A stretch of DNA of 32,880 bases from an uncultured bacterium (GTDB lineage Bacteria; Verrucomicrobiota; Kiritimatiellia; PWTM01): positions 1-32,880 of the forward strand of contig CAKZPT010000044.1 of the NCBI GenBank assembly GCA_937139365.1, given 5' to 3'. The notes under the pieces are model-generated. The model was not told where the DNA came from. It searched no databases and saw only the letters and a list, made by a program, of their open reading frames with translations. Of the stretch, positions 1 through 16,254 are shown one piece after another. Each line of letters begins with the position of its first letter. Within the stretch, counting starts at the first letter, position 1. Both the position numbers and the translations under genes were made by a program.

Positions 1-1
1 C

Positions 2-2095
2 GGCCGGTCGCCGGACCGGCTGGGTCGGCGCCTCGAACTTCTGCGCATCGCGGCGCTGGCGATGCTGGCCATCACCTTGCTGCAGCCCGAGCGCGTGCGG
101 CACATCCGCCGCGAGGGCCGAAAGGCGGTCGCCGTCCTGCTCGACGCCTCTGGCAGCATGACGACGCGCGATGTCGCCGTCGGCGCGGGCCCGCCCGTAT
201 CGCGTGCCGATTGGGTGGAGCAGGCGCGCAGCAACGGTCTATGGACGCCGTTGTCGGCCCAGTACGAGGTGATCGAACGCCCCATCTGCGCTCCGCCGGC
301 GGACGTCGACGGCGGGGAGACCGGCACCGACCTCCATGCGGCGCTCGAGGAGGTGGTTGCCTCCCTCCCCGGGCTGCGCGCCGTCCTGCTCCTCTCCGAC
401 GGCGACTGGAACGTGGGCCATCCGCCAGTGGCCGCGGCCGCCCGCATGCGCGCAATGCGCATCCCGATCTACGCGGTGGCCGTCGGCAGCGGCCGCCATC
501 TGCCGGACCTCGCCATCGAGTTGGTTGCAGCTCCGGCCTACGGTCTGGTGGAGGAGAACCTCGGCATCCCCATCGAGATCCGCAGTCGGATGGACCGCGA
601 GGTCCGCACGGACGTGCGCCTGTTGAAGGGGGGCGTCGAGGTCGCGCGCGCTCCCCTCGTCCTGCCGCCGCAGTCCGTGGTCCGGACCCGCCTCGCCCAC
701 CGCGCCGAGGAGCCGGGGGAGGCGGACTTCGAAGTTGTGCTGCCGGTGGAGGGCGGGGAGGCCCGGGAGGATAACAACCGACGGGCCTTTCGGATCGCCT
801 TCCGCCGCGAGGTGGTGCGGGTGCTGTTGGTGGACACGCTGCCGCGGTGGGAATACCGCTACCTGCGAAATGCACTGATCCGCGATCCCGGCACAGAGGT
901 CCGCTGTCTTCTCTTTCACCCGGATCTGCCGCGCGGCAGCGGGCGCGACTATCTGCCGGCGTTTCCGGCGAGCCGACAGGAGTTGTCGCAATTCGATGTG
1001 GTGTTTCTGGGCGACGTCGGCATCGGGCCGGAGGGTCTGACGGCGGAACAGGCCGGCGAGGTGCGCGGTCTGGTGGAGCAACAGGGCAGCGGTCTGGTGT
1101 TTCTGCCGGGCCGTTTGGGGCGGCAATTGTCTCTGACGAACTCCCCTCTGGCGGACCTCCTGCCGGTCGCGTACGACCCGGCGCGGCCGGCGGGCGTGGC
1201 CTCGGCGGTCGAGTCGCGGATCGCCCTGACGAGTGCGGGCCGCGGGCATCTGCTGACGCAGCTTGCCCCGACGCCGGAGGAAAGCGACCTGGTGTGGCGC
1301 TCGCTGCCGGGTTTTTTCTGGCACGCGGCCGTGCAGCGGGCCCGCGCGGGTTCGGAGGTGCTCGGCGTGCACTCGCTGGTCGCCAACGAATCCGGACGTC
1401 TTCCGCTGCTGGTCGTGCGCGCGGCCGGCAACGGGAAGGTCCTCTATCTGGGCGTGGACAGCGCGTGGCGATGGCGGCGGGGTGTCGAGGACACCTACCA
1501 CTACCGTTTCTGGGGGCAGGTGGCGCGCTGGATGGCCCATCAACGGCTGTTGGCCCACGTCGAAGGGCTGAGGGTCTTCTTTGCGCCCGAGCAGCCTTCG
1601 GTCGGCGACCGGGTGCGCATCCACGCGACGGCACTCGATGCCGCCGGGGCGCCGCTCGAGGGAGGCGCGGTCGAAACCCGCGTGGTGGCGCCGGCGGGCG
1701 AGGGGATGGCGATTGCGCTGGCGCCCGTCGCCGGAGGATGGGGGTTGTACGAGGGGGCCTTCACCCCAGCGACCTCCGGCGTTCATCGCGTTCGCGTCCG
1801 CGTGCCGGCCGCGGGGCGGGAGGTGGAGACCCAGCTGGAGGTCTCGCGTCGGCGCATCGAGCGCGTCGGCGAGCCCGCGCGGCCGGATGTACTGCGAGAG
1901 CTGGCCGCCGTCAGCGGCGGCGCGTTCGCTCCGGCCGCGTCGGCAGCGGAGTTGATCGAGCGCATCCGGCTGCTGCCCGAACCGGACCCGGTGGAGCAGC
2001 GGTTTCGTCTCTGGTGCCATCCCGGCTGGGGCGCGGCACTGGCGCTGCTGTTGACGGTCTACTGGTGCGGGCGGAAACTTGCGGGGAGGATCTGA
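2..2095 (+). CDS. vWA-domain membrane protein with glutamine-amidotransferase-like domain (5' partial)
   Basis: The reading frame is already open at base 2, so the true start lies upstream; the first in-window ATG is at 62. Counting from that Met, a hydrophobic segment (residues ~1-9, continuing upstream as LRIAALAMLA) is followed by a von Willebrand A domain with the MIDAS motif DASGSM (D28, S30, S32), a TGTDL segment and LLSDGD. A middle part (~residues 255-400, containing FDVVFLGDVG and GLVFLPG) resembles the class-I glutamine-amidotransferase-like fold, but I see no convincing catalytic Cys. A C-terminal membrane segment (ALALLLTVYWCG) ends the protein. This BatA-like architecture is known from MoxR-DUF58-vWA clusters of planctomycetes and verrucomicrobia. 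Its neighbour starts 2 bp after the stop. Function is unknown; metal-dependent protein binding at the membrane is the family-based guess. Confidence 0.8.
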   Translation, partial: GRSPDRLGRRLELLRIAALAMLAITLLQPERVRHIRREGRKAVAVLLDASGSMTTRDVAVGAGPPVSRADWVEQARSNGLWTPLSAQYEVIERPICAPPADVDGGETGTDLHAALEEVVASLPGLRAVLLLSDGDWNVGHPPVAAAARMRAMRIPIYAVAVGSGRHLPDLAIELVAAPAYGLVEENLGIPIEIRSRMDREVRTDVRLLKGGVEVARAPLVLPPQSVVRTRLAHRAEEPGEADFEVVLPVEGGEAREDNNRRAFRIAFRREVVRVLLVDTLPRWEYRYLRNALIRDPGTEVRCLLFHPDLPRGSGRDYLPAFPASRQELSQFDVVFLGDVGIGPEGLTAEQAGEVRGLVEQQGSGLVFLPGRLGRQLSLTNSPLADLLPVAYDPARPAGVASAVESRIALTSAGRGHLLTQLAPTPEESDLVWRSLPGFFWHAAVQRARAGSEVLGVHSLVANESGRLPLLVVRAAGNGKVLYLGVDSAWRWRRGVEDTYHYRFWGQVARWMAHQRLLAHVEGLRVFFAPEQPSVGDRVRIHATALDAAGAPLEGGAVETRVVAPAGEGMAIALAPVAGGWGLYEGAFTPATSGVHRVRVRVPAAGREVETQLEVSRRRIERVGEPARPDVLRELAAVSGGAFAPAASAAELIERIRLLPEPDPVEQRFRLWCHPGWGAALALLLTVYWCGRKLAGRI

Positions 2096-2097
2096 TC

Positions 2098-5000
2098 TTG
2101 CCGCCGACGTCCTCCATGGGCGGAAACGTGGCGGGCTCCTCGGTGCCCTTCCCGCTGCCGGACGTTCTTCGCCGTCGGCTCGCCGCGTACGAGCGGCGGC
2201 TGCGCGGCGTCGAGACCCTTGCGGCGTCCAGCGTTGCCGTCGCCTGCGCGCTCGGCGCCTTCCTGCTCCAGTTCCTGTCCGATCGCGGCTGGGACACGCC
2301 GGTGGCGATCCGGCTTGCGTTGGCGGCCATCGGCGTCGGCGGCGTGCTGGCGGCGGGGATCGCATGGCTGCGCCGCTGGTGGTGGAACCGGCCCGACCAC
2401 CGGCATTTGGCGCGAATGGTGCAACGACGGCTGCCGGCGCTGGGCGACCGCCTTCTGGGGGCAGTGGAGCTGGCCGAGGGGAGCGCGCCGGTAGGTTCGG
2501 AGGCGCTCCGACGGGCGGCGGTGGAACAGGTGGCGCGCGAGATGAGAAGCGTCGACTTCCGCGCGGCCGTGCCCGTCCGTCCGGCCCGCCGCGCCGCGGA
2601 GTCGGCGGCGGTGCTGGCCGCGTTGGCGGCATTGGCGGCCTGGCGGTTTCCCGACGCAGCCCGTAACGCGCTCGACCGCTGGCTGCGGCCGGCCGCGCCG
2701 ATCCCACGCTATACGTTCGTCCGGCTGTCCGACCTTCCACCGGAGCTGGTGGTGGCCCATGGCGAGCCGTTCGAGATCGAGTGCGCCGCCAGCGCCACCG
2801 CGGGATGGCAACCGGAGCGGGCCACCTGCCGCGTCGGACGCGCCCGCTGGACGCGCCCGCTTGGCCCCCAGGGCCGGGCAAGGTTTCGCATCCCGGGGCA
2901 GACGCAGCCGGCCGCGCTCACCCTCCGCATCGGCGACGCCGTCCGCTCGACCCGGCTCCGCCCGGAATACCGCCCGGCCCTCCTCTCCCTAACGGCCGCC
3001 GTGAGCCCCCCGCCATGGCTGCCCGGACCCCTCCGCGAAACGGCGGTGGAAGCCGGCTGGCTACGCGTGGTCGAGCAATCCAGCGTATCGCTCGAGGGCC
3101 GCGTCTCCCGCGACCTGACGTCGGCGCTGCTGCATGCGCCCGGACCTCGCCCGCTCGAGACGACCGGGGCGGTCTTCCGCACGCCAGCGTTTGTCGCCGA
3201 CCGCGCCGCCTCCAATGGCCTGCCGGAAGCGATGACGTTGACCTGGCGCGACGTGTACGGGTTCGAGCCGGCCGAGCCGGTCCGCCTGCGGGTCGAGATC
3301 GTGCCCGACGCGCCGCCGACGCTGCGGGTGGAAGGACTTCAAGGGTCGGTGGCCCTACTTGAGGAGGAAACGCTGACGTTCGAGGCCGTGGCGTCCGACG
3401 ATCACGGGGTGCGCCGGCTGTGGGTGGTCTGGCGCCGAGTCGAGGACGCCGGCGGCGAAGCCGCGCCGTTGACGAAGACGCTGGCCGAGGGCGGGCCGAA
3501 CCAGGCCGAGCTGCGCGCGCCCTACACGATCTCCGCCGAGGGGTTGCGGCTGCCGCCGGATTCGTCGGCCGACCTGTGGTTGGCGGCCGTGGACCACCGT
3601 CCGGGGCGCGAGCCGGTGGTCTCGCCGGCGTACCGAATCCACATCCTGAGCCGCACCCGCCATGCCCAACTGCTCGAGGAGATGGCCCGCGCCATTCAGG
3701 CCCGCATCGAGGAACTGAGGAGGGAGGAGGAAACGCGGCTCGAGCGCAGCACGGAGCTGGCCGGGGCCGCCGACCGCGCCCTCGAGGCGGAACGCGCGTC
3801 GGAGCAGATCGGGGAATCCGAACAGGGCGAGCGGCGCGACGCCTCCGCCGCCGAGCGGCTGGCCCGCGACGCCGAGCGGCTGGCGAGGGAGGCCGTGCGC
3901 AACCGCGATGTGCCGGAGTCGACCGTCCTCGAATGGAGCCGGCTCGCCGAGCGGCTCGAACGGCTCTCGGCCGGGCCCATGGCTGAGGCCGCTCGCCGTC
4001 TGGGCCAAGCCCGCCGCGTGACCTCCGCCGCCGAGCGCCGCCCGCTGGTCGCGGAGGCCGGCGAACGCCAGCGCGAGGCCGTGCGGGAAATGGGCGGGAT
4101 GCTACGCGACTCCGCCGCCGCGGCGGACGAGCTGGCGTCGCGCGCCTTCGTCCAGCGACTGCGCGACGTTGCCCGCCGCCAGGAGGAGATCAACGAGCGC
4201 CTGCGCGCCGATGCCCCCCGGCTCGCCGGCCTGCCGGCCGGCCGGCTGGCTCCGGCCGACCGGGACGTGCTCGAGCGGCTAGCCGGCGCGCAGCAGCGCA
4301 ACCGCCGCCAGGCGCAATACATCCGCGACGACCTCGTCGGCTTTGCGCAGCGCAGCGGGCGGGAGATCTATGCGGAGATCGCGCGTGACATGTCCGCCCC
4401 GGACGTGCTCGAGGCGATGTCCGCCGTGCGCGGACACCTCACCGGCAACCTTACGTTCCTCTCGATGGAATCGTCGGCGGAGCTCGCCGCCCGGTTCCAG
4501 GAGTGGGCCGACCGGCTGGAGCCTCACGCGGGCGGCGGGGGAAGCGGCGCCGGCGGCGGAGGCGGCGCGCCGCCGCTGCCGGCGGAGGTTTTGCTGGGCT
4601 TGCTGCGGGCCCGCGCCCGTCAGGAGGCGCTGCGAGAATCGACGCGCCACCTGGACGAGCAGCGGACCGAGCTGGCCGACTACGCCGCGGCCGCCCGGCG
4701 GCTGGCCGCCCGGCAGGACGACATCGAGGGCGACCTCCGCCGCCTGAACGACGCCGCTCCCGGCCAAATTCGCGCCTGGATGGAGGCGATCGAGCAGGAC
4801 ATGCTGGTCTCCTCCGCCACCCTCCGCGAACCGCAGACCGACGCCGAGGCCATCGCGATTCAGACGGGCATCATCGAGGCGATCGCCGAGGCGCTCGAGG
4901 GCGGACAGCGGGAGTCGTCCGGCGAAACGGCACCCTCGGCCGAGGCGATGGCGGCCCTGACGCGACTGATGCGGATGCTGAACCAGTCGGGCGGCGGCAG

Positions 5001-5175
5001 CCTGGCCGGGGGCACGACCTCTCGGCCCAACGCGCCGCCGGCGGGGCCCGGTGTCGGGGCGGCGTCGGGGCGGCGCGCGCCCGGGCGCGGCGGCGGGGAG
5101 GAGACGCTGGCCGCGCCGGCGGAGTTTCACGACCTGTTGGAAGGATATTTCGATGGGCTGGAACAATACCGGTAA
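2098..5175 (+). CDS. DUF4175-like membrane and coiled-coil protein
   Basis: A protein of about 1025 aa. I chose TTG 2098 because GGGGAGGA (2082-2089) sits eight bases upstream; ATG 2116 is the alternative. The open frame extends far upstream (to 847), but that part is a shadow of the vWA gene. The N-terminus has two membrane segments (VAVACALGAFLLQFL; ALAAIGVGGVLAAGI) and a third hydrophobic stretch near residue 170. Ig-like/beta-rich sequence follows, then a long Arg/Glu/Ala-rich region (~residues 520-745) with strong coiled-coil character, and Gly-rich linkers (nt ~4530-4575 and ~4985-5100) near the C-terminus. This layout matches DUF4175-type proteins found beside vWA genes. Probably a membrane-anchored scaffold; no enzymatic motif seen. 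It overlaps the next gene by 23 bp. Confidence 0.75.
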   Translation: MPPTSSMGGNVAGSSVPFPLPDVLRRRLAAYERRLRGVETLAASSVAVACALGAFLLQFLSDRGWDTPVAIRLALAAIGVGGVLAAGIAWLRRWWWNRPDHRHLARMVQRRLPALGDRLLGAVELAEGSAPVGSEALRRAAVEQVAREMRSVDFRAAVPVRPARRAAESAAVLAALAALAAWRFPDAARNALDRWLRPAAPIPRYTFVRLSDLPPELVVAHGEPFEIECAASATAGWQPERATCRVGRARWTRPLGPQGRARFRIPGQTQPAALTLRIGDAVRSTRLRPEYRPALLSLTAAVSPPPWLPGPLRETAVEAGWLRVVEQSSVSLEGRVSRDLTSALLHAPGPRPLETTGAVFRTPAFVADRAASNGLPEAMTLTWRDVYGFEPAEPVRLRVEIVPDAPPTLRVEGLQGSVALLEEETLTFEAVASDDHGVRRLWVVWRRVEDAGGEAAPLTKTLAEGGPNQAELRAPYTISAEGLRLPPDSSADLWLAAVDHRPGREPVVSPAYRIHILSRTRHAQLLEEMARAIQARIEELRREEETRLERSTELAGAADRALEAERASEQIGESEQGERRDASAAERLARDAERLAREAVRNRDVPESTVLEWSRLAERLERLSAGPMAEAARRLGQARRVTSAAERRPLVAEAGERQREAVREMGGMLRDSAAAADELASRAFVQRLRDVARRQEEINERLRADAPRLAGLPAGRLAPADRDVLERLAGAQQRNRRQAQYIRDDLVGFAQRSGREIYAEIARDMSAPDVLEAMSAVRGHLTGNLTFLSMESSAELAARFQEWADRLEPHAGGGGSGAGGGGGAPPLPAEVLLGLLRARARQEALRESTRHLDEQRTELADYAAAARRLAARQDDIEGDLRRLNDAAPGQIRAWMEAIEQDMLVSSATLREPQTDAEAIAIQTGIIEAIAEALEGGQRESSGETAPSAEAMAALTRLMRMLNQSGGGSLAGGTTSRPNAPPAGPGVGAASGRRAPGRGGGEETLAAPAEFHDLLEGYFDGLEQYR

Positions 5176-6160
5176 CCGCCGCTCCGTCGCCGTGATCCTC
5201 GTGTGGCTGGTGATCACCGGCCGCGCCACGGCGCAGGGGTGGGGGGCTGTCCACGGCGATCCCATCCCTCCGGCGCTCGACGCCGCCTACGTTCGCGGAC
5301 TCCAGTTTCTCGCGCGAACGCAGACCGCCTCCGGACAGTGGAGCGAGGGGGAGACCGGCCCGGGCGTGATCGGGCTGGCGGTGCTCGCGATGCTGGCCCG
5401 CGGCGACGATCCGGAGGCCGGCCCCTGGGCGGTGCCGATCCGCCGCGGGCTCGATGCGATCCTGCGCGCTCAGCGGCCGGACAACGGCTACATCGGCCCC
5501 TCCATGTACCACCACGGCTTGGCGACGCTCGCGCTGGCCGAGGCCTACGGCGCAGTGGACGACCCTCGGCTGGGGCCGGCGCTGAAAAGGGCCGCCGACC
5601 TGATCCTGACCAGCCAGACGCTCAACCCGCAGGGCGGCTGGCGCTATTCGCCGGATTCCCGCGACGCCGACACCACCGTCAGCGGCGCGCAGGTCGTCGC
5701 GCTCCTGGCCGTGCGCAACGCGGGCATCGGCATTCCCGACACCGCGATCGCGCGCGCCCTTCAGTTCTATCAGGAGTGCCAGGGCGCCGACGGGCAGATC
5801 GGCTACACCGGCCGCGAGGGCGGCAGCGCGCCCCGCAACGCGATCGGCGTCACCGTCGCCGCGCTCGCCCGGGAGCGGGACAGCCGCCTGTTCCGCCGCG
5901 CATTCGACGCGCTGCGGCGGGCGGGCGACGACGAGGGCGGGGGGTACTTTTTCTACTACATCTATTATGCCGCCCAGGCGTTCTTTCACGCCGACCCGGC
6001 GGCCTGGCGAGACTGGAACGCTCGCAACGTCGCGCGGCTCCTCGACGCCCAAGGGGCCGACGGAAGCTGGACCGGGCCGCACGGAAAGGCCTTCAGCACC
6101 AGCGCCGCCCTGCTTTCGCTGGCGGTGAATTACCGCTTGCTGCCCATCTACGAGCGATGA
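5153..6160 (+). CDS. Secreted alpha-alpha-toroid (prenyltransferase/squalene-oxidase repeat) protein
   Basis: 335 aa. ATG 5153 is chosen because a signal peptide begins there (SVAVILVWLVITGRATA) and GGAAGGA (5139-5145) precedes it; earlier in-frame codons are shadow sequence of the upstream gene. At least five repeats with the Q...G.W / G.G...A.LAL pattern are visible: FLARTQTASGQWSEG, ILRAQRPDNGYIG, ILTSQTLNPQGGWRYS, YQECQGADGQIGY and LLDAQGADGSWTG. This is the alpha/alpha-toroid fold of terpene cyclases, prenyltransferases and complement TED domains. It is half the length of a squalene-hopene cyclase and lacks the DxDD acid motif, so cyclase activity is unlikely; protein-protein interaction in the periplasm is the better guess. 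It is coupled to the DUF4175-like gene by overlap. Confidence 0.75.
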   Translation: MGWNNTGNRRSVAVILVWLVITGRATAQGWGAVHGDPIPPALDAAYVRGLQFLARTQTASGQWSEGETGPGVIGLAVLAMLARGDDPEAGPWAVPIRRGLDAILRAQRPDNGYIGPSMYHHGLATLALAEAYGAVDDPRLGPALKRAADLILTSQTLNPQGGWRYSPDSRDADTTVSGAQVVALLAVRNAGIGIPDTAIARALQFYQECQGADGQIGYTGREGGSAPRNAIGVTVAALARERDSRLFRRAFDALRRAGDDEGGGYFFYYIYYAAQAFFHADPAAWRDWNARNVARLLDAQGADGSWTGPHGKAFSTSAALLSLAVNYRLLPIYER

Positions 6161-6173
6161 AAGGATGGATCGC

Positions 6174-7592
6174 ATGAAGACAAGTCAAAGGATCGCCGCC
6201 GCGCTGCTCGCCGCGGCCTGGTCGGTTCGAGCGGAGATCGTCGTGGGGCCGGCCGTTCCGCCGCCGGTCGCCGCCGTGGCGACGGGAACGGTGGGAGCGG
6301 CCGTCTCGGGGGAGGTCGCGCCGACGGGCGCGGTGGACCGCCTGGTGCTGCTGGGCGGCGAGTGGTTGCGGGGGATGCTGGTTTGCATGGACCCCGTATC
6401 CGGCATGGCGGTGTGGCGGCACCCGGCGGTGGCCGAGCCGATCCGGTTTCATGTCTCGAGCCTCGCGGAGGTGCAGCTCGGGCCGAGGGGAGGACGCACG
6501 TCGCCGGACGTCGGCGGATTGGTCCGGCTGACCAATGGCGACGAGATTCGCGGCGAGGTGCGTTCGCTGGACGGGGCCCTTCTCTTGCTGGCGAACACGC
6601 CCGCCGGCGACCTGCGCCTGCGCCGCGAAATGATCGTCGAGATCGTGCCCGGCGGCACGGCCGACGTCCTCTACGAGGGCCCGAATTCGCTCGAGGAGTG
6701 GACCTGCCGGGGCGATCGCACCCGCGGCTGGCAGTACCGCGACGGCGCACTCTGGCCGCTGATGCCGATGCCGCTCGGCCTGCGCGTGGAGAACATGGGC
6801 GACGCGGTTCGCATCGACTTCACCGTGGATTGGCGATCCACCCCCGGCTACTTCAGCTTCTGGTTTTTCCATGAGAAGCCGGAGGACCCGCAGGGCGATG
6901 CGTACATGCTCAACCTCGTCGCGGGCCAGCGCATGGACCTCAACCGGATGCGCGCCAGCGGCGGCGCGCAGAACCTCGGGGCAGTCGAGATGGGGGAGAC
7001 GGCGATGCTCAACCAGTCCATGCGGGTCAGCCTCTTCGCCCACCGTGGCCTCGGGGAGGTCGCCGTGATGATCAACGGCAAGCTCGTCCGGCAGTGGAAG
7101 GACCCCCGCGAGTTCAAGGGCCGAGGGAACGCCGTCACGTTCATGCCTCAGGGGGCGCGAGATTTCCGGCTCACCGAGATCCGCGTCGCGCGGTGGAGCG
7201 GAGTGTTGCCGCAGACCGCCCCCTCTACCTCGCGGCGCGACGTCGACACGATCGTCCTGGCCAACGGGGACCAGATGTCCGGCGCGCTGGAGCGGGTTGC
7301 GGACGGCCGGTTCGTCGTGCAGACGCCCTTCACGCCGGTGGAGGTGCCCGCCGATCGCGTGGTGCAGGCCGTGCTGGCGCCGTCGAAGGCGGCGCGAGCC
7401 CGGCGCAGGAGCGGAGACGTGCGGTTGCGGCTGGTCGGAGGCGGCATCGTCACGATGGAGCTGGCCGGTCTCGACGGCCGTTGGATCACCGGGTCGAGCG
7501 AGAACTTCGGGGAGACGCGCTGGCCGGTGGCCGCCGTTCGGCGAATCGAATTCAACCTCTATGGGGAACGGCACGGATCAAGCGATGACTAA
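6174..7592 (+). CDS. Secreted beta-module protein with central lectin-like domain
   Basis: 472 aa. ATG 6174 is preferred over ATG 6165 because AAGGA (6161-6165) is then eight bases upstream. A signal peptide (RIAAALLAAAWSVRA) is followed by several short beta modules built on the pattern 'V.L.nGD...G.l..ld': LLGGEWLRGMLVCMD, RLTNGDEIRGEVRSLD, VLANGDQMSGALERV and a degenerate last copy near the C-terminus. Between copies two and three lies a ~150-residue beta-rich domain (SLEEWTCRGDRTRGW to FRLTEIRVARWSG) resembling LamG/concanavalin-type or DUF1080-like jelly rolls. Such proteins are common and uncharacterised in planctomycetes and verrucomicrobia. Probably exported and ligand-binding. No catalytic residues recognised. 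It overlaps the next gene by 8 bp. Confidence 0.65.
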   Translation: MKTSQRIAAALLAAAWSVRAEIVVGPAVPPPVAAVATGTVGAAVSGEVAPTGAVDRLVLLGGEWLRGMLVCMDPVSGMAVWRHPAVAEPIRFHVSSLAEVQLGPRGGRTSPDVGGLVRLTNGDEIRGEVRSLDGALLLLANTPAGDLRLRREMIVEIVPGGTADVLYEGPNSLEEWTCRGDRTRGWQYRDGALWPLMPMPLGLRVENMGDAVRIDFTVDWRSTPGYFSFWFFHEKPEDPQGDAYMLNLVAGQRMDLNRMRASGGAQNLGAVEMGETAMLNQSMRVSLFAHRGLGEVAVMINGKLVRQWKDPREFKGRGNAVTFMPQGARDFRLTEIRVARWSGVLPQTAPSTSRRDVDTIVLANGDQMSGALERVADGRFVVQTPFTPVEVPADRVVQAVLAPSKAARARRRSGDVRLRLVGGGIVTMELAGLDGRWITGSSENFGETRWPVAAVRRIEFNLYGERHGSSDD

Positions 7593-8337
7593 GGTCGCCT
7601 GGATGCTGCTGGCCGCCGTCGGGACCGCGGAGCCGCCGGCGGAGCGCGTCATTGCGCTTCCGGCGGCGCTCGACATCGTGGCGGCCGTCCCGAGGTTTCG
7701 CTTTGAGGCGGTCAACGGCGTGGTGGCGCACCTGGATGCGGCCAGCCTCGGCGCGCTGGCCCTGGCCGACCTGGTGGTCCGCATTCCGACGCCGCCCGCC
7801 TCCGCGGTGCCGCCGATGGGCATGCCGGGCTCGCGCGACGAACCGGGCGCCATGGTCGTGGATTGGTCGCCTACGGCCGGGCGGCTCGAAGTGCGGATGG
7901 GCACGGTTCCGTTGACCGCCATTGCGTTGCCGCCCGGCGTGGCGCCCCGTCGGCTGGCCGTCGTCCAGCAGGACCGCCTGGCGCTTTTGGTGTTCCCGGC
8001 CGTCGGCGGGCCTGGCACGTGGGTCTGGAGCGGCGGCCTGGACTACGTGCTGCGGCTTCCCGAGTCCGAGCAGTACGCCTTGTGCCGCGAAATGACCGCG
8101 CGGGCGGGCGATCGGCGGCTCGAGCGCTCCGAGGTGCTGCAGGGCATTCGGTGGGACCAGGTGGACCGGATCGCCCCTGTCCGGGTGGAGGGTGTGTCGC
8201 CCGGTGGGGATCGGTTCGTCCATGTCTATCCTCTCGATCCTGCGGAGCTGGAGGATCGGGCCGTCCGGGCCTTGGGCGAGTTGGTGCGGACATTACGCGC
8301 CGGCGCATGGCCGGCCGGCGCGGCCGGAGGACGTTGA
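7585..8337 (+). CDS. Exported protein of unknown function
   Basis: 250 aa. ATG 7585 gives a short hydrophobic N-terminus (VAWMLLAAVGTAEPP) that could be a signal peptide. ATG 7561 is an alternative in-frame start, and neither has a strong ribosome-binding site, so expression probably depends on coupling to the upstream gene, which it overlaps by 8 bp. The sequence is beta-rich with no recognised motif or family. Its stop is separated from the next start by a single base. I infer an accessory component of the same envelope operon from position only. Confidence 0.65.
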   Translation: MTKVAWMLLAAVGTAEPPAERVIALPAALDIVAAVPRFRFEAVNGVVAHLDAASLGALALADLVVRIPTPPASAVPPMGMPGSRDEPGAMVVDWSPTAGRLEVRMGTVPLTAIALPPGVAPRRLAVVQQDRLALLVFPAVGGPGTWVWSGGLDYVLRLPESEQYALCREMTARAGDRRLERSEVLQGIRWDQVDRIAPVRVEGVSPGGDRFVHVYPLDPAELEDRAVRALGELVRTLRAGAWPAGAAGGR

Positions 8338-8338
8338 A

Positions 8339-9736
8339 ATGGGTGTTCGCGGATGGCGCGTCGCCGTCGTTCCGATCGCGACGCTGGTGTGGGCGGCGGC
8401 GCCGGAGGCGCCCCGGAGGGCGGCCGCACCGGCCGACCTAGGGTCCGAACTGGTTCGCCGGCTGGCGGACGGCGACGTCGGCGGCGCCGTCGAGTTGGCC
8501 CGGGCGGCGGGTCCCGCCGGCGCCACCGTACTGCGGGATCTGGCGGTGAGCGGTCCGCCCGACGTCGTGCCCGTCGCGATGCATGCGTGGAACGCGGCGC
8601 GCTGGGAGATCGGCCCGGGCCGAGCCGCCGACGTGGTCCCGCTGCTGGGATCGTTCGGGGCCGCATCGGTCCGCGCGGCGTGGGATGGGTTCCTCGCCTC
8701 GCGCGGTCCCGGGACGCTGGCGGTGGTGGCGCGGCTGATGGATACGGCCGGTTTTCAGGAGGGGGCGTTTCGGGTTGTGCCGCTGGTCCTGTCCGCGATG
8801 CCTCCGATCGAGTTCGCCTCGTGGCTGGCGGCGTGCGAGGACCCGGCCGTCCTCGCGGCCGTCCGACGCCTGCTCAGGGAGTCCGCCGAACGCGTCCCCG
8901 ACGCCGGCGCCCTGGCCCGGATGTGCGAGACGATGCTGCTGCTGTGGTGGTACGCCGATGTGCCGTCGGTGGCCGTGCGCGGCTGGGCGTTCTCCCGCGA
9001 CGACGCATTCGTCCGTTTCGCCGCCGCCGCTGTGCGCCGCGGCGGCCTGGAGCCCGTCATCGCCGAGGCCCTTCGCCGTCTGCGGGAGGGGCGCGCGGAC
9101 CGCGCGGCGCGTGGCGACGAGATCCTGTTCTGGGTCCGTGTGGCGGCGGCCGCGGGCGCGGGCGATCGCATCCGAGGGGCGCTGCGGCCCCTGGATGTCG
9201 CCCGGCTGCCCGCCCGCGACGCCGCCGAATTGATCCTCGAATGCCGGCGCCTCGGACTGGCCGACGAGGCCCTCCGCCTCCTCGAGGGCACAAACGTTCC
9301 GTGGCTGCTCTACTTGCGCTCCAGCCTTTGCCGCGAGGCCGGCGACGTCGCCGGGGCCGACGCCCATCTCGAGGCCGCGTTCGCGCGGATTGGACGCGGC
9401 GAGGACCTGGACCAGGCCGCCGCCTTCGAGACCGGCGAGGTGATGGACCGTGCCGGCGACGTGGAGGCCGCCGTCCGCGTATGGTCACTCATCATCGACC
9501 GGCCACCGCACGGGCAGATCCAGGATGTCAACGCCCTGCTCCGCCTGGCGCGTGTCGCGGAGACGCGCGGGGATTTCGCCGCCGCCCTCGCGCACAGCGA
9601 GCGGGCGCTCGAGATCAGCCGCGACCTGGGCGCCGAGCAGACGCTCATCGGTCCGGCCGGCCAGCGCGGCACCGAGTGGCTGATGCGGGCCATCCTCGAG
9701 CTACGCCGCCGCGCCGGCGGCGCGGCCCGCAACTGA
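8339..9736 (+). CDS. Exported helical-repeat (HEAT/TPR-like) protein
   Basis: 465 aa. ATG 8339 has GGAGG (8326-8330) eight bases upstream and starts one base after the previous stop. A weak signal peptide (VAVVPIATLVWAAAPEA) is followed by almost entirely alpha-helical, Ala/Arg-rich sequence. The last ~130 residues have TPR-like spacing (AGDVEAAVRVWSLIID; RGDFAAALAHSERALEIS). No catalytic residues recognised. As the last gene of the coupled series, it is likely a protein-interaction platform of the envelope operon. Confidence 0.65.
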   Translation: MGVRGWRVAVVPIATLVWAAAPEAPRRAAAPADLGSELVRRLADGDVGGAVELARAAGPAGATVLRDLAVSGPPDVVPVAMHAWNAARWEIGPGRAADVVPLLGSFGAASVRAAWDGFLASRGPGTLAVVARLMDTAGFQEGAFRVVPLVLSAMPPIEFASWLAACEDPAVLAAVRRLLRESAERVPDAGALARMCETMLLLWWYADVPSVAVRGWAFSRDDAFVRFAAAAVRRGGLEPVIAEALRRLREGRADRAARGDEILFWVRVAAAAGAGDRIRGALRPLDVARLPARDAAELILECRRLGLADEALRLLEGTNVPWLLYLRSSLCREAGDVAGADAHLEAAFARIGRGEDLDQAAAFETGEVMDRAGDVEAAVRVWSLIIDRPPHGQIQDVNALLRLARVAETRGDFAAALAHSERALEISRDLGAEQTLIGPAGQRGTEWLMRAILELRRRAGGAARN

Positions 9737-9746
9737 TCCCCGTTCG

Positions 9747-11233
9747 ATGGAGCTGTCGCTCGTTTTTCCCCATCAGTTGTTCGAACGCCATCCCGCCGTC
9801 CGACGCGGCCGGTCGCGCTGATCGAAGATTCCCTTGTTTTCGGCGACCCCCATGCGCCGGCGGCCTTTCACCGTCAAAAGCTCGCGTTTCACCGAGCCAG
9901 CCTGCGGCGCTACGCCGCCCGGCTGTCCGCCCTGGGTCACGACGTGCGGATCGCCGAATGGCGGGCCGGGGTGACCTGCGTGCCGATCCTCGAGGAGTTG
10001 GCGCGGCATGGCTTCGACCGCTGGGTGGTCGTCGAACCCGTGGACCATCTGCTCGAGCGGCGGATCCGCCGCGCGGCCGGCCGCGTCGGCGCCCGCGTCC
10101 AATGGTTGGACACGCCGATGTTCCTCTCGTCCAAGGATTGGAACATGTCATGGCTGGGGGAACGATCCCGGCCGCGGATGGCCGACTACTACATCGCCCA
10201 GCGGCAGCGGCTCGGCGTGCTGCTGGAGGAAGGCGGCGGCCGCCCGGTCGGCGGGCGATGGAGCTTCGACACGATGAATCGGCGCCGTCTGCCCCGCGGC
10301 CTCGAGCCGCCCCCGCCGCCGGCCTTTTCCTGGACGGCGCCGGACCTCGTGGAGGCCGCTGCGTGGGCCGACGCGACGTTCCCTGGCCACCCCGGCTCCG
10401 CGCGTGACGCGTGGCTGCCAGTGGACTCCGACGGCGCGCGGGCATGGCTGGAGGAGTTTCTGGCGCGGCGCCTCGCGAGGTTCGGCGACTACCAGGACGC
10501 AATCTCGTCCCGCCACGACGTGCTGTTTCATTCCGCCCTCTCGCCGTTGATCAACGCCGGTCTCCTCACCCCCCGCGAGACGCTCGACTGGGTCCTCGAG
10601 GCGGCGAGGGAATTCCGCGTTCCGCTGAATTCGGCCGAGGGGTTCCTGCGGCAGTTGATCGGCTGGCGGGAATTCGTGCGGGCGATCTACGAGCGTGATG
10701 GCGTGGCCGTGCGGAACGCGAATCATTGGGGCCATGCGGGACGGTTGTCGGCCGCCTGGGATGGGGCGCGTACCGGTCTGTCGCCGCTGGACGCAGCCCT
10801 GGAACGGGTCGACCGGCGCGGCTGGTGCCACCACATCGAGCGACTGATGGTGATCGGCAACGCGATGCTCTTGGCCGGCGTGGCGCCGAACGAGGCCTAC
10901 CGCTGGTTCATGGAGCGGTTTCTCGACGCCTACGACTGGGTGATGGTACCCAACGTCTACGGGATGAGCCAGTACGCCGACGGCGGCGGCTTCGCGACCA
11001 AACCCTACATCGCGGGCTCGAATTATCTGCGCAAGATGAGCGATTTTGAGGCGGGGCCGTGGACGGAGGAGTGGGACGGGCTGTTTTGGACGTTCGTCGG
11101 GAGGTGGGGCGCGCGGCTGCGGCGCGAGCCGCGACTCGCCGTGCTCGCGCTACAGTGGACCCGCATGCCGGCATCGCGCCGCCGGGCGCTCGAACGCGCG
11201 GCCGACGCCGCCCGCTCGCGGCTGCTGGCGTGA
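9747..11233 (+). pseudogene. Cryptochrome/photolyase-family protein with one frameshift near codon 20
   Basis: A deoxyribodipyrimidine photolyase-related (COG3046-type) flavoprotein. The N-terminus starts at ATG 9747 (MELSLVFPHQLFERHPAV) but hits a stop after RRGRSR. The rest (PVALIEDSLVFGDP, FHRQKLAFHRASL and onward) continues one frame back to 11233, so about one base is missing near 9800-9810. The total length (1487 nt) fits a 495-aa protein missing one base. Family landmarks include GWREFVRAIYE, HHIERLMVIGNAMLL, YDWVMVPNVYGMSQYADGG and FATKPYIAGSNYL (FAD/DNA-binding C-terminal domain). Where iron-sulfur photolyases have MSDYCxGC...CPF, this one has MSDFEAGPWTEEWDGLFW, so those cluster cysteines are absent. 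GTG 9944 could start an N-truncated product. It borders carotenoid genes, consistent with a light-response locus. Real lesion or sequencing error cannot be told apart. Confidence 0.75.
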
Positions 11234-11428
11234 GCCGCTGAAAGCCCACGGTTGGGGATGCCCGCCGCGGACGGAGGCCGCGCCTGCCGAGGCACGTAGT
11301 TCGTCCGGCGCCGGGCTTGGGGCGGAGGTGTGGCGGCCGCGGGCTGCATCGGGGGGTTGGCCCTGCGCGGGGATTGGGGTAGGTTGGCTCCGCTTGGCGT
11401 GCGTAGGCGCGGCGCTGGGGCCAACCGC

Positions 11429-12517
11429 GTGGCATTCATCTTCGTCATCGCCGTCGGCGTCCTGCTGCTGGTCCTCTGGAATGCGGCGGCATGGCCACAA
11501 CTCGGGCCTGCGGCGGAGACGACCCCGGAGGACGTATCCATCCTGATCCCGGCGCGGGACGAGGCGGCGAACATCGTGCCGTGCCTGGAGGCCTTGCGCG
11601 GGCAGGCCGGTGTCCGCGAGATCCTCGTCTACGACGACGAGTCCCGCGACGGCACGCCCGACCAGGTGCGTCGGCTCGCGTCCGGTTGGCCCCGCGTGCG
11701 ACTGATCGGTCCCGAACCGCTTCCGGAGGGCTGGACGGGCAAAACCCATGCCTGCGCGCGATTGGCCGACGCGGCGACGGGCCGATGGCTGCTGTTTCTC
11801 GATGCGGATGCGCGGCTGGCGCGCGACGCCGTCGCGCGCATCCGGGCGGAGGCCGAACGGCGGCAGGCCACGCTGCTCTCCTGCTGGCCGGGCCTGGAGA
11901 TGCATGGCTTCTGGGAACGGGCGCTGATGCCGTTGCTGAACTTCGTCGTGTTCACCCTGTACCCCGCTCCGCTCGCGTTCCGAATGCAACTGCCGTCCCT
12001 GGGCCTCGCCCACGGCGCCTGTGTTCTGTGCCGCCGCGACGCGTACCTCCGGATCGGCGGCCACGCGCGCGTCCGCGGCGAGCTGTTCGAGGACACCGCG
12101 CTGGCGCGGGCGTGGCGGGCGGCGGGGGAAGTCGCCCATTGCGTGGACGGCCAGTCGGCCGTTCGAACGCGAATGTACGATTCGTTCTCCTCGATCTGGC
12201 GCGGCTTCCAAAAGAACATCTATCCCGCCTTTCGTCGCGAGTTGAGTTTCTGGCTGTTCTGGTGGTTCCACGCGGCGGTCTTCGTCGCGCCGTTTGCGGC
12301 GGTCGTCGTCGCCCCCACCGCGGCGGCCTGGGGCGCGGCGGCGTGCGCGTGGGCCGCCCGCGGCCGGCTGGCGAGGCGTTTCCGGCAGCCGGCGTGGTCC
12401 GTGGCCCTTCACCCGCTGGCGGAGGCGCTGATGCTGGCGCTGGCCCTGGTCTCGTGGCATCGATGCCGGACGGGGCATGGGGTCGAATGGAAGGGGCGCA
12501 GGTGGCGTGGGCGGTAA
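11429..12517 (+). CDS. Family 2 glycosyltransferase, carotenoid-type (CruC/CrtQ-like)
   Basis: 362 aa. GTG 11429 has GCTGGGG (11414-11420) eight bases upstream and starts directly with a membrane segment (VAFIFVIAVGVLLLVLW). The GT-A core shows VSILIPARDEAANI, VYDDESRDGT, GWTGKTHACARLA and the DxD-type LFLDADAR, then FEDTALARAW and a WRGFQKN segment. Two or three C-terminal membrane helices (FWLFWWFHAAVFVAPF; PLAEALMLALALV) end in EWKGRRW. GWTGKTHAC and the WKGR ending are typical of GT2 enzymes in carotenoid or hopanoid clusters. Likely job: sugar transfer to the hydroxylated end of a carotenoid, since CrtD-like and CruF-like genes follow in overlapping frames. Exact acceptor and sugar are unknown. 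The 195 bp upstream is GC-rich with only a weak promoter candidate (TTGGCC-N17-TAGGTT, 11357-11385). Confidence 0.75.
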   Translation: MAFIFVIAVGVLLLVLWNAAAWPQLGPAAETTPEDVSILIPARDEAANIVPCLEALRGQAGVREILVYDDESRDGTPDQVRRLASGWPRVRLIGPEPLPEGWTGKTHACARLADAATGRWLLFLDADARLARDAVARIRAEAERRQATLLSCWPGLEMHGFWERALMPLLNFVVFTLYPAPLAFRMQLPSLGLAHGACVLCRRDAYLRIGGHARVRGELFEDTALARAWRAAGEVAHCVDGQSAVRTRMYDSFSSIWRGFQKNIYPAFRRELSFWLFWWFHAAVFVAPFAAVVVAPTAAAWGAAACAWAARGRLARRFRQPAWSVALHPLAEALMLALALVSWHRCRTGHGVEWKGRRWRGR

Positions 12518-13985
12518 CGGCAAAGCCGTTGTCATCGGCGGTGGACTGGGCGGGCTGGCCGTCGCGGCGCGGCTGGCCCGCGCGGGCTGGCGCGTAACGC
12601 TGGTGGAGCAGGGGCCGACCCTTGGCGGCAAGATGAATTTGTGGGAGTGGGACGGCTATCGTTTCGACACCGGCCCCTCGCTGCTGACGATGCCGTGGGT
12701 GTTCGAGGACCTGTTCGCGGCCTGCGGCGAGCGAATGTCGGACCATCTGGAGCTGATCCGGGTCGATCCGCTGGCGGAGTACGTCTTCGACGACGGCGAG
12801 CGGTTCCGGCATACCGCGTCGCTGCCCGAGTGGCTGAGGGCGGTGCGCCGACTCGAGGGCGGGGACGCCTCCGGGTTCTGGGGTTTCATGCACCTCGGCG
12901 CGCGATTGTACGAGCTGTCCCGGGCGACGTTTTTCGTCTCCTCGCCGTTCGAACGTCCGGCGGCCGGCACGGCGCGAAGGACGCTGGCGGCGCGGCCTCC
13001 GCTGCGGCGCGCGTGGGGCAACTACGCGGCCGCGGTGCGCCATTATTTCCGGTCGCCACATCTGCGTCGGATGTACGACCGCTACACGACCTACGTCGGC
13101 TCGTCGCCGTGGCTGGCCCCCGCGACGCTGGCCGTGATTCCGTACCTCGAATGGACCGAAGGTGTGTGGCACGTGCGCGGCGGCATGTACCGCATGGTCG
13201 AGGCGGTCGCACGCCTTTGCGGGCGAGGCGGGGTTGAGCTGCGGACCAACGCTCGCGCCGTCCGCATCGAGCTTCGCGAAGGAAGGGTGGCCGCCGTCGC
13301 GCTGGAGTCCGGCGACCGCCTCGCGGCCGACGTCGTCGTCATGAACGGGGACGCCTCGAGGACCCCGGCGCTTCTGGGCGAGGCCGGCGGCGGCCTGCCG
13401 GAGCGGGAGCGTTCGTTGTCGGGGTTGGTCTTCCTCTTTGCGCTGCGGGACGAGTTGCCCGGCTGTCCCCACCACTCCGTGTTTTTCTCGGCCGACTACC
13501 GGGCGGAGTTCGACGAGCTGTTTGCGCGGCGGACGTTTCCCTCCGACCCGACGGTCTACGTGAACGTGCCCAGCCGGACGGATCGTTCGGTGACGCCGGG
13601 CCGCGGCGAGGTGATGTTCGTGATGGCCAATGCGCCGGCCAACGACGCCGACGCGTGGGACGTGGCGGCGGTGGAGGAGGCCCGCCGGCGCGTGCTCGGC
13701 CGTCTGCAACGTGGCGGATTTCCGGAATTTCGGGAGAAGGTAGCGGCATCCGCGGTCTGGACGCCGCGGGACATGGCGCGACGCTACGACATGCCCGGCG
13801 GCGCGATCTACGGACGCAGCTCGCACGGCTGGCGAGGTGCGTTTCTGCGTCCGCCGAACCGCAACCGGGCTGTCGGCGGTCTGTACCACGTCGGCGGCAG
13901 CACCCATCCGGGGGGAGGTACGCCGACGGTGCTGCTGTCGGCGCGGATCGTCGCGGAGCTGGTCGAACGCTATGAACGCGCGTGA
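12507..13985 (+). CDS. Carotenoid desaturase/oxidase of the CrtI/CrtD superfamily (CrtD-like)
   Basis: 492 aa from GTG 12507, which follows GGAAGGGG (12489-12496) and overlaps the glycosyltransferase stop; ATG 12477 is an alternative. The FAD-binding Rossmann motif VVIGGGLGGLAVAARL is at the very N-terminus, followed by YRFDTGPSLLTMPWVFEDLF typical of CrtI-type enzymes. The C-terminal flavin-binding region reads AFLRPPNRN...GLYHVGGSTHPGGGTPTVLLSA. The GGSTHPGGG form, rather than GASTVPGTG, is what I associate with CrtD/CrtP-type enzymes that act on already hydroxylated or desaturated chains, while the second homologue (16255-17724) looks like the phytoene desaturase. Assignment as 1-hydroxycarotenoid 3,4-desaturase is inference supported by the adjacent CruF-like gene, which it overlaps by 14 bp. 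Confidence 0.8.
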   Translation: MGGNGKAVVIGGGLGGLAVAARLARAGWRVTLVEQGPTLGGKMNLWEWDGYRFDTGPSLLTMPWVFEDLFAACGERMSDHLELIRVDPLAEYVFDDGERFRHTASLPEWLRAVRRLEGGDASGFWGFMHLGARLYELSRATFFVSSPFERPAAGTARRTLAARPPLRRAWGNYAAAVRHYFRSPHLRRMYDRYTTYVGSSPWLAPATLAVIPYLEWTEGVWHVRGGMYRMVEAVARLCGRGGVELRTNARAVRIELREGRVAAVALESGDRLAADVVVMNGDASRTPALLGEAGGGLPERERSLSGLVFLFALRDELPGCPHHSVFFSADYRAEFDELFARRTFPSDPTVYVNVPSRTDRSVTPGRGEVMFVMANAPANDADAWDVAAVEEARRRVLGRLQRGGFPEFREKVAASAVWTPRDMARRYDMPGGAIYGRSSHGWRGAFLRPPNRNRAVGGLYHVGGSTHPGGGTPTVLLSARIVAELVERYERA

Positions 13986-14805
13986 GGTGGGGCTGCGCGC
14001 TCTGGCCGCGGTGGCGGCCCTGTTGGCGGCCGGCGGGACGGCGTCCTACGTCGGGCTGGTGTCGTCGCCGACGGCGGCGGTTCCGTGGATCGCGACGCTG
14101 ACGATCCTGTGCGCCGCGGCGCTGGTGCTGGTCTCGCTACCCGCTGGCGAACGTCGGTGGGCGGCGCTGGCGGGGGTGGGAGGCTTCGCGGCGGAGCTGT
14201 TGGGCGTGCACTTTCATTTTCCGTTCGGCGTGGACTATCGGTACACCGACCGCCTTGCGTTGCAGGTGGCGTCGGTGCCGGTGGCGCTGGCGGGCTGCTG
14301 GGTCATTCTGCTCTGCTATGCGCGCGAGATGGCCGCCGGCGTGGCAGGTTCCCCGTGGTCCGGCGTCGTGGTGCAAGCGGCGTGGATGATGGCGATCGAT
14401 CTCGTCCTCGATCCCGTGGCCACCCGCGTGATGGGGTTGTGGGAGTGGGGCGCTGGCGGGGCGTGGTACGGCGTGCCGTTGAACAATTTCGCCTGGTGGT
14501 TTGCGGTGAGCCTCTGCCTGGCGGCGGTCCAGCGGCCGCCGGCTGGCGCCAACCGGTGGGTGGCCGGCACGGGGCTGGGCACCGTCGCGTTTTTCACGGC
14601 GATCGCGCTGGGACGGGGCATGAGGGGCGCGGCCGCGGTCGGCCTGGCCCTCGTGGGCCTGCATGCGTTGGTCCGCGGCCGTCTCAATCGGCTCCGGGCG
14701 ACCCCAGAAGCCTGTCGATCCGCCGGAAACATGCCTCGAGCGCCTCGGGCGTCGCCGCTCCGTCGTATCGGTGCTCGATCGCGCCGTCCGGACGCAGCAC
14801 CATGA
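13972..14805 (+). CDS. cruF: CruF-like carotenoid 1,2-hydratase (DUF422 family)
   Basis: 277-aa membrane protein with about seven hydrophobic segments. ATG 13972 overlaps the CrtD-like gene by 14 bp. Family hallmarks: AAELLGVHFHFPFGVDYRYT, LDPVATRVMGLWEWG and GVPLNNFAWWF, matching the conserved E..G...PFG.Y.Y, D..LDP.A and GVP..NF.GW pattern of CruF (gamma-carotene 1'-hydroxylase / bisanhydrobacterioruberin hydratase). Reaction: addition of water to the terminal C1-C2 double bond of an acyclic carotenoid end. The last ~40 residues (after LVRGRLNRL) are Arg/Pro-rich and overlap the convergent redoxin gene by 122 bp; the family normally ends near LVRGR, so the tail may be a read-through extension. 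Confidence 0.75.
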   Translation: MNAREVGLRALAAVAALLAAGGTASYVGLVSSPTAAVPWIATLTILCAAALVLVSLPAGERRWAALAGVGGFAAELLGVHFHFPFGVDYRYTDRLALQVASVPVALAGCWVILLCYAREMAAGVAGSPWSGVVVQAAWMMAIDLVLDPVATRVMGLWEWGAGGAWYGVPLNNFAWWFAVSLCLAAVQRPPAGANRWVAGTGLGTVAFFTAIALGRGMRGAAAVGLALVGLHALVRGRLNRLRATPEACRSAGNMPRAPRASPLRRIGARSRRPDAAP

Positions 14806-15193
14806 CGTTCGCTACCCCCGGCCGGCCGCCGTACCTGTCAAAGACCTCGCCGCTCCAGTCGAGCAGGACCGGATGGTCCGGCACGTGGCGGCGGAACATT
14901 GCGCGGATCCAGCCGCGCAGGACCTCCGGAACGCCCTGAAGGCGGGCGACGCCCTCGATCACGACTGCGCCGCGGTAGCGGGCGTAGATCGGCCCGATCC
15001 ACCCCTCGATCTGTTCCGAGCCGCGCCGGTCGGCGAGCACGAGCACGCCCACCCGGGTCCGCGGGAACCGAACGACGTGGAGGCGGCCGAACTGATCGTG
15101 CAGCTCGAACACGACGCCGCGCGGCATCGAGTCCGCGGCCGCGACGAATGCGGCGGCGCCACAGACCGCAGCCGTCCACGTTGGAAATCTCAT
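14684..15193 (-). CDS. Exported redoxin-like protein lacking catalytic cysteines
   Basis: 169 aa, ATG at 15193, with a signal peptide (WTAAVCGAAAFVAAADS). The remainder has the thioredoxin-like layout of YtfJ/redoxin proteins: FELHDQFGRLHVVRF, VGVLVLADRRGSEQIEGW, PVLLDWSGEVFDRYG and VMVLRPDGAIEHRYDG. No CxxC is present at the expected position after the first beta strand (LADRRGSE instead), so it is unlikely to be a classical disulfide enzyme. It sits on the opposite strand, splitting the carotenoid genes into two blocks, and shares a 53-bp divergent promoter region with phytoene synthase. Role unknown. Confidence 0.65.
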   Translation of the reverse strand: MRFPTWTAAVCGAAAFVAAADSMPRGVVFELHDQFGRLHVVRFPRTRVGVLVLADRRGSEQIEGWIGPIYARYRGAVVIEGVARLQGVPEVLRGWIRAMFRRHVPDHPVLLDWSGEVFDRYGGRPGVANVMVLRPDGAIEHRYDGAATPEALEACFRRIDRLLGSPGAD

Positions 15194-15232
15194 GTGGTGG
15201 GGTACATTATGTGTCCAATGGCGGCCCGTAAA
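15181..15232. promoter_or_regulatory. Divergent overlapping promoters, redoxin-like gene / crtB
   Basis: On the + strand TTGGAA (15181-15186), 16 bp, TACATT (15203-15208) faces crtB. On the - strand TTTACG (15227-15232), 15 bp, CATAAT (15206-15211) faces the redoxin-like gene. The two -10 elements overlap, so the two transcription units probably compete or share a regulator. Matches to the sigma-70 consensus are moderate (4-5 of 6); no operator was identified. Confidence 0.4.
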
Positions 15233-15246
15233 GCGCAGGAGCGGTG

Positions 15247-16251
15247 ATGGGGATCAAGACCAACGAAGCGGCCGCCTGGCCGGAGTCGCGTTGGATCGAA
15301 TTCGATGCGCGACTGCGGCGGCGTGCGCTGGGCGCCTCCGATGCCGCTGCATGGTCGTGGATCGTCCGCGCCGCGCGGTGCGTGATGCGTTCGTTCACGA
15401 CGAGTTTTTTCATCGTCAGCCGGTTTCTCCCGCGCGCCAAGCGCGACATGGTCGAGGTGGTGTACGCGGCCGTCCGCCAGCCGGACGAGGTGGTGGACAG
15501 TTTTCCCCTCGACGCCGCCGGCAGGCTGCAGCGGCTGGAGGCGTGGGGCGCCGGTTACGAGACGGCGCGGGCGGCCGGCGGCCTTCGCGCCGCGCTGGCG
15601 GCCGGCGCGCCGTGTTTTCTGGCCGGCTTCGCCGAGGTGATGCGCCGCACCGGCATTCCCGCGGATCACTATCGAGCGTTTCTGCAAGCGATGCGGCAGG
15701 ACGTGCAGCCGCAGCCGTTCTCGACGATGGACGATCTGGTGGATTCGTACGTCTACGGGAGCGCCGTCGTGGTCGGCTATTTTCTCACCCACATCTATGG
15801 CGCGAGCGCGCCGGGTCGATTCGACACGGCTTTGCGGGTCGCGCGCCATCTCGGGATTGCCTTGCAGCTCACGAATTTTGCCCGCGACGTATCGGAGGAT
15901 CTCCAGCGCGGCCGGGTCTATCTCCCGCTGGACATGCTGCACGCCGAGGGGGTGACAGATCCGTTCGCCAGAGACGCGGCGACCAGGGACGGTCTCGGAC
16001 GCGCGGCCCGGCGGCTGGCGGCGGCGGCGGCCGATGGCTACCGGCGTGCCAGCGAAGGGCTGGACGCATTTGCCGCGGACAGCCGCGTGGCGATCCGGGC
16101 CTGCATGGACGTGTACGGCCTGCTGAACCGGCGGATTCTCGAGAGTCGCGACGGCATCGACCGGCGGGAAAGCGTGCCGTTGCGGGAGAAGCTCCGTCCT
16201 CTCCCCATCAGCAAGTACTGGCGCATCCCGCTGGGCTATCTGGGGGCCTGA
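15247..16251 (+). CDS. crtB: Phytoene synthase (squalene/phytoene synthase family)
   Basis: 334 aa. ATG 15247 follows AGGAG (15237-15241) at five bases; GTG 15244 is too close to it. The enzyme condenses two prenyl diphosphates (GGPP to phytoene, or FPP to a C30 dehydrosqualene) at the start of carotenoid synthesis. Visible motifs are the first Asp-rich site QPDEVVDSF (DExxD), the second Asp-rich site NFARDVSEDL followed by GRVYLPLD, and the N-terminal SFTTSFFIVSRFLP. Length is normal for the family. Chain length (C30 or C40) cannot be told from the sequence. The next gene starts 3 bp after the stop, so crtB, crtI and the hydrolase form one unit. Confidence 0.9.
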   Translation: MGIKTNEAAAWPESRWIEFDARLRRRALGASDAAAWSWIVRAARCVMRSFTTSFFIVSRFLPRAKRDMVEVVYAAVRQPDEVVDSFPLDAAGRLQRLEAWGAGYETARAAGGLRAALAAGAPCFLAGFAEVMRRTGIPADHYRAFLQAMRQDVQPQPFSTMDDLVDSYVYGSAVVVGYFLTHIYGASAPGRFDTALRVARHLGIALQLTNFARDVSEDLQRGRVYLPLDMLHAEGVTDPFARDAATRDGLGRAARRLAAAAADGYRRASEGLDAFAADSRVAIRACMDVYGLLNRRILESRDGIDRRESVPLREKLRPLPISKYWRIPLGYLGA

Positions 16252-16254
16252 CCC

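Follow-up and report, generated by a model that had tools for sequence, protein, structure and literature searches.

A MoxR-vWA operon of Verrucomicrobiota with a cyclase-fold toroid, and the envelope machine that it may encode

The stretch of DNA analysed here (the window, 32,880 nucleotides) is the entire contig C44 (CAKZPT010000044.1), one of the 117 that make up a 2.82 Mb genome from an uncultured bacterium of the Verrucomicrobiota, and its left end (1–9736) carries six operon genes, all on the + strand, which we consider as part of a putative envelope machine. The first (<1–2095) encodes a membrane protein with a von Willebrand factor A (vWA) domain (PF00092, 9e-4, residues 106–163), whose 5′ codons lie on another contig, C97. 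It is followed by the gene for a DUF4175-like protein (2116–5175), with hydrophobic segments at residues 32–55 and 61–86 and orthologues in a 17-row alignment, and by that for a toroid of squalene-cyclase (alpha6/alpha6) fold (5153–6160), read as exported, with a signal-peptide-like N-terminus. The remaining three encode an exported beta protein of barrels and a lectin-like jelly roll (6165–7592), a protein of 250 amino acids (aa) with a signal-peptide-like start, to which we give no family name (7585–8337), and a helical-repeat protein, also with a signal-peptide-like start (8339–9736). Spacings between successive genes are +20, −23, +4, −8, and +1 bases. The first-pass annotation had the genes overlapping or 1–13 bp apart; the packing is indeed tight, and the first gap is 20 bp if the ATG start preferred for the second gene is used. 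A promoter and terminator scan of 1900–10200 gave no signal above chance. The presence of six closely packed genes is confirmed.

The operon continues on C97, whose end, on the opposite strand, repeats window positions 1–29 at 97%. Across this 29-base overlap the first codons of the vWA reading frame on C97 are continuous with window gene 1. In the joined orientation C97 carries genes for a MoxR ATPase (505–1497; AAA_3, PF07726, 1e-58; Walker A GLPGLGKT), a DUF58 protein (1501–2418; DUF58 3.2e-46, VWA_2 1.1e-8), a BatA-type protein (2415–4382; BatA, PF07584, 1.8e-16, the N-terminal domain also being matched by TIGR02226 at 1e-16), and, from 4379 on, the start of the vWA protein. The overlap, the uninterrupted reading frame, and the matching gene order of relatives together join C97 to the window as an operon of nine genes, of which the window holds the right part, cut by the contig end, and which has a core of six (MoxR, DUF58, BatA-type, membrane vWA, DUF4175-like, and toroid). 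The first-pass annotation had likened the cluster to MoxR-vWA clusters and proposed a check for MoxR and DUF58 genes to the left; both are found there, directly adjoining, together with BatA.

Metal ion-dependent adhesion site (MIDAS) motifs are present in the DUF58 (DASAS), BatA-type (DRSAS), and membrane vWA (DASGS) proteins, the last as anticipated from the window alone. The vWA MIDAS residues D48, S52, and D133 are invariant in 22 aligned rows, and the DxSxS pattern is kept in 26/27 DUF58, 27/29 BatA, and 31/34 vWA sequences. The middle of the vWA protein, which we take to be glutamine-amidotransferase-like, was matched by no model. The DUF4175-like protein has two N-terminal hydrophobic helices and then a long stretch with coiled-coil segments, read as periplasmic. 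Its name, carried over from the earlier annotation, is a weak one: no Pfam family, PF13779 (DUF4175) included, matched the window protein at a cut-off of 0.1, and one of 17 relatives matches DUF4175, at 6e-5.

The AlphaFold2 model of the toroid is confident (mean predicted local distance difference test score, pLDDT, 91.7), and its closest solved fold is squalene-hopene cyclase (2sqc_A, Z 26.2, root mean square deviation 2.7, 274 aligned residues, 18% identity); the stretch GYxGxSMYxHGFATLAL aligns with 2sqc residues 606–624. Together with a match to PF13243 (SQHop_cyclase_C, 4.7e-9), this bears out the squalene-oxidase-repeat-like toroid first proposed. Conserved positions stand out across toroid rows: Y46, M118, Y119, H121, W163, R164, Y165, D173, Y218, Y268, Y271, Y272, and Q275 are present in 81/81, as are a C-terminal N-Y-R and P-I-Y-E. 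When orthologues and paralogues are taken together (39 sequences, the paralogues reaching down to 31% mean identity), Y119, H121, W163, Y165, Y218, Y268, and Y272 are kept in 39/39 and D173 in 38/39, while the paralogues carry S for T175 and Q for E334 in all 15 cases. Judging from their location near the starts of the inner helices, the invariant residues probably line a pocket. The toroid is also the best conserved exported protein among close relatives, at 54–80% identity vs 33–51% for the DUF4175-like protein.

The model of the beta protein (pLDDT 84.8) comprises two small five-stranded barrels, a jelly roll at residues 168–343, and two further barrels of this kind. The predicted jelly roll resembles CBM66 (4b1m_C, template modeling score, TM, 0.74, normalised to target length), in agreement with the lectin-like centre claimed before, and Pfam gives weak SH3/Sm-type matches to two families, each in 4/50 members. 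Botulinum-toxin binding domains in its fold list reflect the common jelly-roll fold (TM 0.22–0.27 by query length) and were rejected as a sign of a toxin. In four loci of close relatives the beta genes form tandem runs of 2–4. The 250-aa gene recurs in three loci (L023, L024, and L027) and the helical gene in four (also L030, a 30% match); the helical protein has a single weak tetratricopeptide repeat stretch near the C-terminus (TPR_12, 2.4e-4). Because both genes are found only in close relatives, they lie outside the conserved core. At L023:16246–16710 and L024:2908–3372 (− strand), the gene after the helical one encodes a 154 aa membrane protein whose central part reads as lipoyl/biotinyl-like; it is absent from this place in the window.

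Gene order, whose conservation the first-pass annotation had made a check of its proposal, is kept well beyond close relatives. At the level of the taxonomic order, the DUF4175-like gene was found in 8/9 genomes, counting the source genome, the missing one being 68% complete, and the fetched loci retain MoxR-DUF58-BatA-vWA-DUF4175-like-toroid-beta up to their contig limits. Across the class, a toroid profile run over 193 genomes separated a strong group of 34 (about 1e-84 or better, with two fragments among them) from all others (6e-69 or weaker). In the 20 loci of this group that were fetched, the DUF4175-like gene precedes the toroid in 20/20, with beta between in two; upstream, MoxR, DUF58, BatA, and vWA are all present in 14/20, a contig edge intervenes in five, and one (L067) shows no vWA in 4.4 kb upstream. 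Named genomes were scanned too, and the 80 best of 563 confirmed matches nearly all bear labels of Verrucomicrobiota groups, including the isolate Rubritalea profundi; off-group labels, which we treat cautiously, are Proteobacteria (L107, L124) and Planctomycetota (L128). The DUF4175-like gene lies ahead of the toroid in 78 of these 80 loci and beta comes after the toroid in 76; 26 show the full upstream order. Since the order recurs in other genera, other families, and one other phylum, it exceeds what chance would give.

The vWA gene does not always stay beside the toroid. Among the 44 named loci with at least 9 kb of upstream sequence it is present in 30 and absent in 14. Sixteen genomes without vWA at the toroid locus were searched, and 15 hold a vWA orthologue elsewhere (5e-205 or better). 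The 15 distant sites, all fetched, comprise ten with MoxR-DUF58-BatA-vWA, two more with BatA-vWA, and three with vWA alone. The operon thus has two separable blocks, MoxR-to-vWA and DUF4175-like-toroid-beta. In R. profundi a single 4.16 Mb scaffold carries the two blocks, separated by about 0.4 Mb. In G285, read as the type strain of the gut bacterium Akkermansia muciniphila (ATCC BAA-835), DUF4175-like (2410521–2413810), toroid (2413863–2414867), and then beta genes are distant from a BatA-vWA pair (165259–169433).

Joint presence nevertheless persists where the halves of the operon lie far apart, as they often do. In a phylum-wide set of 193 genomes at least 90% complete, with cut-offs placed in gaps seen earlier (toroid 1e-75, vWA 1e-120, DUF4175-like 1e-30), orthologues of the three proteins occur in 31/193 genomes each, with identical genome lists, or in 15/107 genera, counts that shared descent inflates. 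In the class set of 193, a vWA orthologue is present in 32/34 toroid genomes, and none has vWA without toroid.

Diverged copies repeat the pattern. In an unselected count, a listed toroid is present on the same contig for at least 33 of the 50 paralogous vWA rows. Eighteen paralogous loci (L219–L236) were chosen for having vWA and toroid paralogues on one contig, and are therefore uninformative on how often the two co-occur; the order MoxR-DUF58-BatA-vWA-DUF4175-like-toroid holds in ten of the 18, the toroid comes first in three, and five are cut or have a member undetected. MoxR, DUF58, vWA, and toroid distances run parallel across 39 cassettes (r 0.83–0.96). One cassette holds a tandem pair of toroid genes (L234:12101–14247). 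A further toroid of the source genome (L217), at a contig end, showed no cassette. Outside the phylum, the Planctomyces sp. SH-PL62 plasmid pPL62-3 (NZ_CP011276.1; L237, L238) carries matches spanning the origin, in the order toroid, MoxR, DUF58, BatA, vWA, and DUF4175-like. The toroid, MoxR, and DUF58 matches on this plasmid are split over several frames, which may reflect sequencing error or decay.

The six core proteins very likely act together. We propose that they form a remodelling machine of the MoxR-vWA type whose periplasmic half is new and has the toroid as client or effector, and give this a probability of roughly 0.55. The remodelling part is suggested by the chaperone-like behaviour of MoxR-vWA pairs, as described in excerpts of three sources (PMC3893208; PMC8926400; PMC7159879), and by the requirement of a Rhizobium MoxR operon for envelope integrity, in excerpts of two (PMC3893208; PMC5700661). 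The MoxR ATPase would form a ring in the cytosol, partnered by DUF58 as vWA co-chaperone, and spend ATP on remodelling a complex of the two vWA proteins in the membrane; partners would be gripped by way of MIDAS contacts that depend on metal. From its two-helix anchor, the DUF4175-like protein would relay this action into the periplasm. There the toroid may serve as the client or effector specific to the machine, which would load or position it, and the conserved pocket of the toroid would bind a common ligand. The lectin-like beta proteins would be variable, glycan-facing partners. Gene content and order, joint inheritance, conserved residues, and MIDAS motifs are observed, as are the predicted folds of toroid and beta; we infer complex formation, the direction of force, localisation, the ligand, and the role of the toroid as client and not sensor. 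Taken more broadly, the set is probably an undescribed modular ATP-driven envelope machine (MoxR-DUF58-BatA-vWA-DUF4175-like-toroid) that exists in several diverged versions within one genome, each with its own toroid, in Verrucomicrobiota (including Akkermansia) and Planctomycetota, one version having lectin-like beta partners. The interpretation offered by the first-pass annotation, a periplasmic assembly or surface-complex machine, is supported.

A handful of observations weigh against the remodelling machine. Two class genomes, G002 (68% complete) and G100, have a toroid and no vWA orthologue; and G194, the miss among the 16 genomes above, has the toroid triad without a clear one. Another toroid of the source genome (L218) stands without a surrounding cassette. 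The Akkermansia BatA-vWA pair lacks an adjoining DUF58, so that linkage to MoxR and DUF58 is not universal. Finally, the parallel distances of MoxR, DUF58, vWA, and toroid are in part due to shared descent.

Alternatively, the toroid could be an active periplasmic enzyme that uses its invariant Tyr/His/Trp/Arg/Asp set and is matured by the MoxR-vWA proteins, e.g., by metal insertion, which we consider unlikely. The catalytic DXDD is found in 0/81 toroid rows (the pattern occurs somewhere in one of 15 paralogues, L223), a DxDTT stretch aligns weakly with squalene-hopene cyclase near residue 70, outside what we take to be the position of the acid motif, and no metal ligand set is evident in the toroid. 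However, Y119, H121, W163, Y165, D173, Y218, Y268, and Y272 hold in at least 38 of the 39 orthologous and paralogous sequences, the fold-match list includes glycosidases and epimerases, and MoxR-vWA pairs elsewhere stimulate metal insertion, according to part of one source (PMC8926400). The first-pass annotation had concluded from missing cyclase residues that the toroid is probably a binding protein rather than an enzyme; the absence of DXDD stands, but the conclusion overreaches, because a strongly invariant residue set remains.

It also seems rather improbable that the operon is a general envelope-integrity system like the Rhizobium cmd or Bat operons, in which the toroid and the lectin-like proteins merely ride along as passengers. 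Its leading genes (MoxR, DUF58, BatA domain) fit such operons, and excerpts of two reports (PMC3893208; PMC5700661) describe Rhizobium operon mutants with a defective envelope and shape. Yet toroid and DUF4175-like proteins occur in exactly the vWA-bearing genomes of the phylum set even when unlinked, and are for that reason unlikely passengers. Very doubtful is a toroid that carries a cobalamin-like or isoprenoid small molecule, the operon then serving uptake or lipid handling: cyclases of this fold, complexes of which are in the fold-match list, bind isoprenoids, and transcobalamin, likewise of this fold, binds B12 (excerpts of PMC1796856), but neither a transporter nor an SLBB/DUF4430 domain accompanying the toroid was found among the operon proteins, and the carotenoid genes downstream are unlinked in 121 related loci. 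A MoxR-vWA ternary system for conflict or defence is highly improbable, as the bpMoxR match of the MoxR protein (1.9e-11) is far weaker than its AAA_3 match, defence models run over the nine proteins matched nothing save generic AAA, and the exported proteins are conserved, not diversifying effectors.

To the right of the operon, a photolyase-related gene (PF04244) comes directly after 9736 and opens a carotenoid-type cluster on the + strand (9748–17724) that continues with a family 2 glycosyltransferase (GT2), CrtD-like and CrtI-like desaturases, a CruF-like hydratase, and a phytoene/squalene synthase-like protein. An isoprenoid role by way of these neighbours was rejected because six of the cluster proteins are unmatched in 121/121 related loci (1e-10). 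Further along lie a gene for an SNF2-type helicase-like protein (PF00176) with a long N-terminal extension (24349–28221, + strand), a protein isoaspartate methyltransferase (PF01135) inside 28233–30263 on the opposite strand, and a tRNA-Asn (gtt; 30413–30487), the sole Rfam match of the window.

MoxR ATPases are widespread and few of their clients are known. A toroid tied to a MoxR-vWA set even when unlinked makes the client question directly testable, and the presence of the set in the presumed A. muciniphila type strain brings it into a cultured organism of wide interest. No published description of the gene set was found in open-access literature, and its resemblances to known systems are partial. 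MoxR-vWA ternary conflict systems, as outlined in part of one source (PMC7159879), share the MoxR and vWA core, whereas no VMAP, STAND (iSTAND), FtsH, or vWA-fused beta-propeller component was matched here by Pfam or PADLOC among the nine operon proteins. With the Bat (aerotolerance) operon, the deletion of which gave no oxidative phenotype in Leptospira biflexa in excerpts of PMC3557215, the present operon has MoxR, DUF58, and the BatA N-terminal domain in common, but none of the nine proteins has a Pfam match to BatD or BatE. The Rhizobium leguminosarum cmdA-D operon (RL3499–RL3502), described as widely conserved and as having a part in the envelope, likewise includes a MoxR gene; the partial, second-hand description that we compared makes no mention of toroid or lectin-like proteins. 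Class II terpene cyclases, including squalene-hopene cyclase, have the toroid fold, but the toroid here is single-domain, exported by reading, and devoid of DXDD. CbbQ/O and NorQ/D are MoxR-vWA pairs. As in such chaperone pairs, e.g., RavA-ViaA, a MoxR AAA+ ATPase gene adjoins vWA/MIDAS genes; unlike them, the operon has three MIDAS proteins, two of them in the membrane, and adds a DUF4175-like protein and an exported toroid that is conserved.

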